Below, piece by piece: positions 6,944-55,457 of a DNA stretch of 64,000 bases. The position numbers and the translations under genes are program-made. The notes under the pieces were generated by a model. The model was not told where the DNA came from. It saw only the letters and a list, made by a program, of their open reading frames with translations, and ran no database searches. The DNA is from Deltaproteobacteria bacterium (GTDB taxonomy: Bacteria; Myxococcota; Myxococcia; Myxococcales; SZAS-1): assembly GCA_018266075.1 (NCBI GenBank), contig JAFEBB010000006.1, forward strand, positions 124,001-188,000, in the 5' to 3' direction. Position 1 is the stretch's first letter, and every line of letters begins with the position of its first letter.

Positions 6944-7050
6944 GTGAGTGGCTGGTGGCTGGTGGCTCTTGGCGGGTTGGCGGGAGCCGATGAGCGACCC
7001 CTCTTGGCTGGCTGGACCTGGCGCACTGCCAGTCACCAGCACGAGCCACC
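6944..7050. repeat. Inverted heptamer-repeat element (GGTGGCT type)
   Basis: From 6949 the plus strand runs GTGGCT-GGTGGCT-GGTGGCT and then continues in degenerate form (CTTGGCG, GGTTGGC). About 60 bases further, 7028-7050 carries the same words on the other strand (GAGCCACC, CACCAGC). The two arms could pair imperfectly across a less ordered centre. It lies between the divergent sirtuin and tRNA-Ala genes. See related elements near 39.05, 50.88 and 55.43 kb. Confidence 0.6.
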
Positions 7051-7122
7051 GACCCAGGGCTCGGAGTGGATTCGCGAAGGGCGTCAGCTGGGCGTCGCGA
7101 GCGCGTCCATGTCGCACAGCCC

Positions 7123-38574: not shown

Positions 38575-38991
38575 ATGGCGCTCAAGGCCAAGGGCTTGGA
38601 TCACGTGGCGATCGCGGTGAAGGACCTGGACGCCGCGGTGGCGCTCTACCGCGACGTGCTCGGGCTCGAGCTCGCGGAGATCGAGGAAGTGGCCGAGCAG
38701 CAGGTGCGAACGGCGATCTTCGGGCATGGCATGGGGCGCATCGAGCTCATCAGTCCCACGGCGCCGGACACGGGCGTGGCCAAGTTCCTCGAGAAGCGCG
38801 GCGAGGGGCTGCACCACATCTGCGTGGAGGTCGACGACATCGACGCGGCCATTTCGGCGCTCTCGGAGCGTGGCGCGCCGATGATCGACAAGACCCCCAA
38901 GCCCGGCGCCGGCGGCGCGAAGGTGGCGTTCGTGCATCCGAAGGGGCTGCACGGTGTGTTGGTCGAGCTGCGGCAGGGCTCGAAGAAGTAG
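38575..38991 (+). CDS. mce: Methylmalonyl-CoA epimerase
   Basis: A 138-residue VOC-fold enzyme, the usual length. It converts S- to R-methylmalonyl-CoA, feeding propionyl-CoA into succinyl-CoA. Visible metal-site cues are LDHVAIAVKDLDAAV, GRIELISPT and GLHHICVEVDDI, plus the tail PKGLHGVLVEL. GGGAGA precedes the ATG. The mutase is not in the window. A long palindromic repeat follows 42 bases after the stop. Confidence 0.9.
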   Translation: MALKAKGLDHVAIAVKDLDAAVALYRDVLGLELAEIEEVAEQQVRTAIFGHGMGRIELISPTAPDTGVAKFLEKRGEGLHHICVEVDDIDAAISALSERGAPMIDKTPKPGAGGAKVAFVHPKGLHGVLVELRQGSKK

Positions 38992-39032
38992 GGCGCCAGG
39001 CTTTCCCCGACACGCGAGGACGCGAAGCGATT

Positions 39033-39106
39033 GGGGAACGGTAACGGTGATCGGTCTCTGGTGATCGGCGCCGATCACCCCACACCGATCACCGGTACCG
39101 TTTCCC
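39033..39106. repeat. 74-bp inverted heptamer-repeat element (GGTGATC type)
   Basis: A symmetrical element centred at 39069/39070. A perfect 20-bp palindrome (39060-39079) is flanked by 4-base spacers and by 23-bp arms (39033-39055 and 39084-39106) that are complementary at 21 positions. Read in one direction each arm steps in sevens: GGTGATC, GGTCTCT, GGTGATC. Four GATC sites fall at symmetrical positions. It could form a very stable hairpin or cruciform between mce and the next gene. Confidence 0.85.
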
Positions 39107-39170
39107 AAGCACGCGCGTGCAGCGGGTCAACGAGGGAAACGCGCGCTCCCCAACACTCCCGAAATCTTCA

Positions 39171-39241: not shown

Positions 39242-41164
39242 ATGATCCGAGCCGCCGTGCTTGCCGCTGCCGTGTTCGCCGCGGCGCCTGCCTTCGCCCA
39301 GGTCGACGGCGGCGCCAGTGCTCCGCTTCCCACGCCCACCGGCACCGCCACGACCACGAGCGGCAACGTCGACGTCGAGGCCCTGCGCCGCGACCTCCTC
39401 GAGCAGGCCCGCAAAGAGGCCGACCAGCGCGTGGCCCAGGCCAAAGAGGAAATGCGCAGCGAGGTCCGCGCGGAGCTCGCCACCCAGAGCGCCAATCGCA
39501 GCTGGGAAGAGGAGTGGCAGGAGCAGAAGAAGAAGCTCGACCTGCTCGAGCTCGACGGCTACCTGCGTGTGCGCCCGGTGCTCTTCCAGAACATGGACCT
39601 GGGCCGCGGCCCGGATCCCTCGGGCGACTTCCTCTACCCGCGGCCGTACATCAACGACAACTTCGTCAACAGCGATGGCACGCCGAGCTACCCCTCGCGC
39701 ACGCTGGTCTGGGCCGACACGCGCTTCCGCCTCGAGCCCACGGTCAACGTGAGCGAGGACATCCGCATCCGCACCCAGCTCGACATCTTCGACGACCTCA
39801 TCCTCGGCTCCACGCCGGAGATCGACACGCGCTACCCCACGCCGTTCTTCAGCATGAACCAGCTGGCGCCCAACAACGCCATCAACTTCAAGCGTGCCTG
39901 GGCCGAGGTGAACACGCCGGTGGGTCTGCTCTCGTTCGGCCGCATGGGCTCGAACTGGGGCCTGGGCATGTTCACCAACGACGGCAACTGCCTCGACTGC
40001 GACTACGGCGACACCGTGGACCGCATCTCCTTCGCGGCGCGGCTCGGCGGCTTCTACATCGTTCCCATGTTCGACATGGACGGGAAGGGCGTGCTCGAGT
40101 CGAAGCGCTACGACGCCGCGACGATCACCGTTCCTTCCTCGCCAGCGTCGCTTGTGCCCGGCCAGAAGGTGGATCCCGATCAGGCCGACGACGTGGCCGG
40201 CCCGCTGTCCGGCCCGGTCTTCACCATCGCCATCGCCAAGCGCGACACGGAGAAGGAGCTGCAGCGCAAGCTCGACGCGGGTGAGTCGAGCCTGAACTAC
40301 GGCGTCTACTTCAGCTATCGGCGGCAGCGCTTCACCTGGGTGAACACGGTGCCCATCCTCGACGCCACCGGTCAGCCGATCACCAACCCCACCACGGGCG
40401 TCATCGAGACCGCGCCGATCGCGGTGGCCACGGGCGCGTCGGTGTACACGCCCGACCTCTGGGGCCGCTTCCAGACGCCGCGCCTGCGCATCGAGGCCGA
40501 GGTGGCCGGCGTGTTCGGCTCCATCGACAACCACAACCTGAGCCCCACGGCGCCGCTCGCGCAGCAGCAGAGCATCTCCATGACCCAGCTCGGCGCGGTG
40601 GTGCAGGCCGAGTACAAGGCGCTGGAGAACATGCACCTGCACTTCTACGGCGAGATCGGCTTCGCGTCGGGCGACTCGGCGCCGGGCATGGGCAACACCA
40701 ACATCCTCGGCACCACGCCCACGGTCCCCGGCGACATCGACGGCCCGCAGTACAACTGCGCATCGACGGTGTGCAGCGACTCCAACATCAACAACTTCCG
40801 GTTCAACCGCGACTACCGCGTGGACCTGATCTTGTGGCGCGAGTTGCTCGGCAACGTCACCGACGCCATCTACTTCAAGCCCGGCGTGAAGTACGAGATC
40901 GCCGAGGGCTTCGACGTGCACCTGAACGTCATCTATTCGCGCACCATCTTCGCGGCGTCGGCGCCGGGCAACGACAACAACCTCGGCATCGAGTTCGACC
41001 CGGGCGTGGAGTACCGCTCCGACGACGGCTTCACCGCGGCCGTCAACTACGGCCTGCTGGTGCCCATGGCGGGCCTGCAGAACAACAACATCCCGGGCGC
41101 GACCACGCCGTACTCGCCGGGCCTGGCCAACGCCATCCGCGGCACGCTGGCGGTGAAGTTCTAG
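39242..41164 (+). CDS. Outer-membrane beta-barrel protein, TIGR04551-like
   Basis: A 640-residue protein with a clear signal peptide (AAVLAAAVFAAAPAFA). Residues about 40-110 form a charged coiled coil (LLEQARKEADQRVAQAKEEM). The rest alternates polar and aromatic residues as in a large barrel, with long Asn/Pro-rich loops, and ends in Phe (TLAVKF), the usual last residue recognised by the BAM machinery. It resembles the TIGR04551 family known mainly from myxobacteria. A porin-like or polymer-export role is inference. Confidence 0.8.
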   Translation: MIRAAVLAAAVFAAAPAFAQVDGGASAPLPTPTGTATTTSGNVDVEALRRDLLEQARKEADQRVAQAKEEMRSEVRAELATQSANRSWEEEWQEQKKKLDLLELDGYLRVRPVLFQNMDLGRGPDPSGDFLYPRPYINDNFVNSDGTPSYPSRTLVWADTRFRLEPTVNVSEDIRIRTQLDIFDDLILGSTPEIDTRYPTPFFSMNQLAPNNAINFKRAWAEVNTPVGLLSFGRMGSNWGLGMFTNDGNCLDCDYGDTVDRISFAARLGGFYIVPMFDMDGKGVLESKRYDAATITVPSSPASLVPGQKVDPDQADDVAGPLSGPVFTIAIAKRDTEKELQRKLDAGESSLNYGVYFSYRRQRFTWVNTVPILDATGQPITNPTTGVIETAPIAVATGASVYTPDLWGRFQTPRLRIEAEVAGVFGSIDNHNLSPTAPLAQQQSISMTQLGAVVQAEYKALENMHLHFYGEIGFASGDSAPGMGNTNILGTTPTVPGDIDGPQYNCASTVCSDSNINNFRFNRDYRVDLILWRELLGNVTDAIYFKPGVKYEIAEGFDVHLNVIYSRTIFAASAPGNDNNLGIEFDPGVEYRSDDGFTAAVNYGLLVPMAGLQNNNIPGATTPYSPGLANAIRGTLAVKF

Positions 41165-50844: not shown

Positions 50845-50927
50845 GTTCCTGGTTCCTGGTTCCTGGCCGCAAGTGGATGGACGAGAGCTCGTCCGCTGCC
50901 AGGAACGAGCAACCAAGAACCAGGAAC
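50845..50927. repeat. Inverted heptamer-repeat element (GGTTCCT type)
   Basis: Plus strand 50845-50866 is GTTCCT-GGTTCCT-GGTTCCT-GG. Its inverse spans 50899-50927, reading GTTCCT-GGTTCTT-GGTTGCT-CGTTCCT-GG on the minus strand. Between them is GGACGAG-AG-CTCGTCC (50879-50894), a perfect palindrome with a 2-base centre. It lies between the divergent ureohydrolase and receiver genes, and shares its design with the element at 39.05 kb. Confidence 0.8.
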
Positions 50928-55419: not shown

Positions 55420-55457
55420 GGTGGCTGGTGGCCCGTGGCGGGTGGCTGGCACGGGCC
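55420..55457. repeat. Short heptamer-repeat element (GGTGGCT type) with hairpin
   Basis: From 55420 the sequence steps in sevens: GGTGGCT, GGTGGCC, CGTGGCG, GGTGGCT. GGCCCGTG (55430-55437) and CACGGGCC (55450-55457) pair perfectly across 12 bases. It begins five bases after the AraC stop and may serve as its 3' hairpin. The word is the same as at 6.95 kb. Confidence 0.55.

Follow-up and report, generated by a model that had tools for sequence, protein, structure and literature searches.

Tandem heptamers are the most abundant periodic repeat of prokaryotic intergenic regions, and their function is not known (PMC6344855). In Xanthomonas, convergent (inverted) heptamer pairs number 70 in Xcc and 75 in Xac (PMC4692102), and TAACTGA repeats occur in Beggiatoaceae, Cyanobacteria and Bacteroidetes (PMC4679880). 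The intervening sequence of Coxiella 23S rRNA has a 28-bp terminal stem and, directly before its S23 ORF, carries two or three GACAGAT heptamers depending on the strain; the S23/IVP protein has a solved pentameric structure and no known function (PMC4990558). Intergenic heptamers, their inverted pairs and the S23 ORF of 23S intervening sequences are therefore already described separately. A literature search that scarcely covered subscription journals and bioRxiv found no paper in which heptamer arrays are generally connected with S23/IVP genes.

The stretch of DNA analysed here (the window, 64,000 nucleotides) contains members of three repeat families, termed A, B and C, the most regular of which is a palindrome near 39 kb. 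The features are as follows.

6948 to 6977, plus strand: family C array, GTGGCTG in three to four copies (sequence and genome search)
7030 to 7054, minus strand: degenerate inverted partner of the family C array, CAGTCACCAGCACGAGCCACCGACC (inverted-repeat listing)
38990 to 39030, no strand: outer left arm of family A, more weakly conserved, GGCGCCAGGCTTTCCCC... (alignment of 18 copies)
39031 to 39108, no strand: complete, gene-less family A palindrome with head-to-head arms ending in GGTGATC-type heptamers (genome matches and alignment)
39060 to 39079, no strand: central perfect palindrome, at whose centre single-arm copies end (sequence and copy comparison)
39109 to 39150, no strand: outer right arm of family A, mirroring the left, ...GGGAAACGCGCGCTCCCC (alignment of 18 copies)
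50845 to 50866, plus strand: family B array, GTTCCTG in 3.1 copies (sequence and genome search)
50899 to 50927, minus strand: degenerate inverted partner of the family B array, CCAGGAA in four copies (sequence)
55420 to 55449, plus strand: single, unpaired family C array, GGTGGCT in four copies (sequence)

The first-pass annotation had described a perfect 20-bp centre between 23-bp arms built of 7-bp units starting with GGT and carrying GATC at mirror positions. This description is accurate: GGTGATCGGCGCCGATCACC is a perfect 20-bp palindrome (39060-39079), the arms (39033-39055 and 39084-39106) match at 21 of 23 positions and contain the heptamers GGTGATC GGTCTCT GGTGATC with GATC at mirror positions, and the full inverted repeat extends to 78 bp (39031-39108). 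With GGTGATCGGTNNNNGGTGATCGG as query and up to two mismatches allowed, two matches were found in the window versus none in 100 shuffles. The palindrome is intergenic, between a glyoxalase-family gene (mce) upstream, whose stop is at 38991, and an ORF downstream that starts at 39242, both on the same strand; it thus sits between protein genes and not in a 23S rRNA helix. As RNA it is predicted to fold at −63.9 kcal/mol (z = −7.4), and none of 200 shuffles was equally stable. An Rfam search of the window returned a single match, a tRNA, and no known RNA family at the palindrome. No T-run adjoins the hairpin on either strand, so an intrinsic terminator was rejected, in agreement with the earlier view that the structure is too regular for an ordinary one. 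At 78 bp the palindrome is too short to hold a gene, and it would therefore be a gene-less derivative rather than a complete element.

The genome searched comprises 7.84 Mb in 166 contigs and is 96.6% complete. Family A gave 74 matches in this genome, representing ∼37 loci because the palindrome matches on both strands; counted by eye, about half of these are complete palindromes and about half are single arms. The single arms end at the palindrome centre (GGTGATCGG) and are followed by unrelated sequence. Alignment of 18 copies revealed a core with outer arms (GGCGCCAGGCTTTCCCCGC... and its mirror), and some copies extend outward to GGCCGTCGC...CCGGCAGG. Many span ∼150-220 bp; in the 39-kb element, too, the arm reaches further out than first described. 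Further copies and a 7-bp period, on which the first reading had staked itself beforehand, were both found, the period being conserved across many copies. The copies adjoin unrelated genes. Terminal inverted repeats, the lack of a gene and a multi-copy state, which together characterize MITEs, are all seen in family A. In two places, a pair of single family A arms lies face to face with room for a gene between them; the intervening DNA holds an ABC-transporter ATPase-like gene in one (L091, 2728-3672) and a 70-amino-acid ORF in the other (L096), each of which is possibly cargo and possibly a chance neighbour.

The same design in other words had been noted at 50.88 and 6.95 kb, and direct heptamers with a hairpin at 55.43 kb. 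The design indeed recurs genome-wide, families B and C occurring elsewhere as numerous single arrays and in some cases as inverted pairs, but the words belong to three different repeat families. The array at 50.85 kb is real and consists of three GTTCCTG units with an imperfect inverted partner (50899-50927), that at 6.95 kb, noted as less perfect, is a GTGGCTG-type array with a decayed inverted partner, and the heptamers at 55.43 kb form a GTGGCTG-type array without one. The E. coli Chi octamer GCTGGTGG lies inside GTGGCTG arrays (6948-6968 in the window), which is probably a coincidence. Integron attC-like sites (GCTAAC/GGTAAC beside arrays) were considered and dropped, as the motif often reflects a stop-codon context. 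None of 59 further genomes from this order contains family A or B; the set includes no second genome from this taxonomic family.

Exactly two genes in this genome encode the PF05635 four-helix bundle (S23/23S-rRNA IVP; TIGR02436), and both lie inside inverted heptamer arrays. The first (C35) is flanked by inverted GTTCCTG arrays of family B. The second (C41, 36405-36710) is flanked on either side by a pair of family A arms in inverted arrangement; the four arms score 68, 63, 38 and 34, where the null maximum is 29. Since families A and B, two of the three in the window, each share their ends with a four-helix-bundle gene, the window palindrome reads as a gene-less form, and we consider it likely to be the MITE-like derivative of a four-helix-bundle mobile element with inverted 6/7-nt arrays at its ends. 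A relative of solved structure, 2gsc, was matched with E = 1e-23, and the protein family has a weak NCBIfam match to Avd.

GTDB species genomes were scanned with an exact GGTGATC-array pattern. Among the matches listed there were more than 100 such stretches, in many phyla, mostly heptamer arrays with changing words; some of the actinobacterial matches among those listed are single and probably unrelated. A repeat restricted to this genome or to Myxococcota, as the first-pass annotation would have allowed, is therefore rejected, and intergenic heptamers, inverted pairs among them, are also on record from Xanthomonas, Nostoc, Calothrix and Beggiatoaceae. PF05635 is present in 49 of 195 Myxococcota genomes and in 25 of 30 genomes chosen only by a heptamer match, the other five being two Streptomyces, a Paractinoplanes and a Nocardia (actinobacteria), and Mitsuaria.

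For 61 four-helix-bundle loci that were fetched, array periods from 4 to 12 were tested. Period-7 arrays occur in 45 of 112 gene-proximal flanks versus 5 of 107 distal ones and period-6 arrays in 21/112 versus 2/107, while each other period was seen in 0-2 flanks, with the exception of 12, a multiple of 6; the enrichment is confined to these three. A matching inverted pair of arrays encloses the gene at 35 of 58 loci from many phyla, compared with 1 of 169 mispaired sides and 2 of 47 distal flanks, in locus sets whose independence is limited by paralogues and related plasmids. With 1-kb flanks the figures are 32/48 and, for mispaired sides, 5/277; the 16 of 48 loci that lack a clear inverted pair despite such flanks count against the best explanation. 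Words vary between elements but are matched at the two ends of each. Several elements in Myxococcota genomes (G018, G035, G069 and G190; L333, L344-L350) have two oppositely oriented four-helix-bundle genes, with inverted-repeat start regions and hexamer end arrays.

Loci chosen by their arrays (n=120) include 52 inverted heptamer pairs, most of them gene-less with a gap below 300 nt, and a four-helix-bundle gene lies within ∼250 nt in four of the 120. Four array-chosen loci have a gap of 300-600 nt with a gene-sized ORF, which in three is a four-helix-bundle gene. Genes of other kinds lie inside a few of the array pairs (the ABC ATPase of L091, the small ORF of L096 and a NUDIX-like ORF in L242), which also counts against the proposal.

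A second set was obtained by searching the C35 protein against plasmids, from which 16 matches, mostly cyanobacterial, were fetched. On inspection, all 16 have short tandem arrays, mostly heptamers, inverted near the ORF. Scores of at least 16 for inverted arrays were reached by 14 of the 16 genes, by 1 of 23 neighbouring genes and by 15 of 240 swapped pairs, the array words being similar among cyanobacteria. Occupied sites could be aligned with empty ones in related plasmids: L370 with L376/L377 (∼97-98% flank identity), L372 with L380/L381, L371 with L383/L384, L369 with L386, L362 with L387/L389 and, at a more diverged nrdB-nrdA site, L360 with L385. With one exception, the insertions fall where one gene stops and the next on the same strand starts, and neither ORF is interrupted. 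The exception is the nrd site, at which the gene of the element runs opposite to its neighbours. In L388 the element is one gene gap from its L369 position; the Nostoc plasmids L369, L386 and L388 share an operon in which the element fills either of two gene gaps or is missing, which makes them a natural series for work on target choice. At an occupied site, L382 carries an array pair with the L372 word but no gene. The element of L370 recurs in L379, where one array is 14 bp (two units) shorter. At the L370 site, a plasmid of Nostoc sp. C052 (L378) retains the left array and part of the four-helix-bundle gene, which is truncated. Four-helix-bundle elements also lie within CRISPR operons on plasmids of Anabaena sp. 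90, Pseudanabaena galeata and Picosynechococcus PCC 7003 (L361, L366 and L373), twice in the cas6/cas4 gap and once in the cas10/cmr2-cmr3 gap. Candidate 7-bp target duplications are TACTAAG (exact, L371) and TAAT[TA]AA (one mismatch, L370), with none clear elsewhere, and a fixed target duplication was dropped as the plasmid sites are inconsistent.

The Myxococcota genomes G018, G035 and G069 carry multi-copy elements at many sites, with 72-93% identity for most pairs. Judged from sequence comparison, within-genome dispersal and empty sites in plasmid relatives make the mobility of these elements well supported. Family A itself is apparently mobile, as seen from its dispersal in one genome, the empty sites coming only from the plasmid relatives.

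We propose that the complete form would consist of an inverted end (an arm of 6- or 7-nt repeats), one or two PF05635/TIGR02436 genes and a mirrored inverted end. The encoded protein would bind the repeated words at both ends, whether in the DNA or in an RNA stem, thereby pairing the ends of the element; it could be supplied in trans to gene-less copies. Since the period is all that elements have in common, with a different word in each, recognition is probably by the spacing of the repeats or by the hairpin and not by a fixed sequence. Transcribed inverted arrays could pair as a stem, like the 23S intervening sequences that are cut by RNase III. Neither a transposase nor a reverse transcriptase could be recognised in the elements read; cutting and joining would fall to another enzyme. 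Avd is a homopentameric ring. XCC0516 (2gsc), a relative of the four-helix-bundle protein, also forms a homopentamer (PMC4990558).

It is quite possible, if still short of probable, that these elements make up a widespread mobile class whose sole protein is a pentameric four-helix bundle, whose ends are read by period and symmetry and not by sequence, which is the source of the prokaryotic intergenic heptamers and of 23S intervening sequences, and which moves by a novel transposition chemistry. The data link two puzzles, the intergenic heptamer repeats and the function of the S23/IVP protein. They offer an origin for bacterial intergenic 7-base repeats in four-helix-bundle elements and their gene-less relatives, with 23S intervening sequences as elements that would have landed in rRNA. 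The origin of heptamers and the role of S23/IVP become testable in tractable bacteria.

Of the other explanations, a retroelement survives best and is still unlikely. The RNA stem of the arrays would be excised, copied by a reverse transcriptase together with an Avd-like protein and then inserted, which fits both the resemblance of PF05635 to Avd (PMC10053308) and the excision of 23S intervening sequences as RNA stems by RNase III (PMC4990558). However, RVT_1 is absent from this 96.6% complete genome and no reverse transcriptase was noticed within the elements read. It is improbable that a Y1 (RAYT) or another classical transposase of the host moves family A as a REP/BIME or ordinary MITE and that the proximity to four-helix-bundle genes is incidental. 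Family A is palindromic, intergenic, dispersed and gene-less, and the genome has two Y1_Tnp genes, but neither family A, B or C sequence nor 7-nt arrays were found beside them, whereas both four-helix-bundle genes have arrays and this association repeats across phyla. About equally improbable is a regulatory or transcript-end hairpin or a selected binding site, as proposed for the Beggiatoaceae TAACTGA repeats, some of which directly precede start codons (MacGregor 2015, PMC4679880). A very stable hairpin between same-strand genes would suit such a role; a hairpin without a T-run, the many copies that are single arms, the unrelated neighbouring genes and the empty sites of related elements argue against it. 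Plain slippage, in which heptamers expand during replication and chance or gene conversion produces the inverted pairs with no mobile element involved, is very improbable because it is contradicted by the empty sites and leaves unexplained the precise gene-bearing insertions, the matched end words and the 72-93% identical dispersed elements, although it may cause changes in array length such as the two-unit difference between the near-identical L370 and L379.

The four-helix-bundle element and its gene-less forms can thus be compared with known systems, and the first-pass statement that no named family has this structure agrees with the literature searched, where none was found that describes it as such. 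Cyanobacterial STRR, GGGAATC of Xanthomonas, GGGGA(T/C)T of Nostoc and TAACTGA of Beggiatoaceae are likewise intergenic tandem heptamers, but they were published as simple repeats or regulatory sites, and a link to four-helix-bundle genes was not found in the literature examined. Diversity-generating retroelements resemble the elements in that Avd is related to the four-helix-bundle protein (the weak NCBIfam match) and differ in their reverse transcriptase, which this genome lacks. REP/BIME sequences with RAYT and MITEs are also dispersed intergenic palindromes, probably mobilised in trans; here, however, the families have the 6/7-nt period but no end sequence in common, no transposase was found, and the associated gene encodes a four-helix bundle. 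The 23S intervening sequences with an S23p ORF (Leptospira, Coxiella) have the same protein family and terminal inverted repeats, and in Coxiella also heptamers just before the ORF; they have been termed selfish and their gene expendable (PMC4990558). They are located inside 23S rRNA helices, whereas the elements described here are multi-copy, lie between protein genes, have a word of their own each and have gene-less derivatives. As 23S intervening sequences already unite the gene, the inverted ends and the heptamers, the element class is a variant of that theme; recognition of the ends by period, if true, would merit a category of its own.
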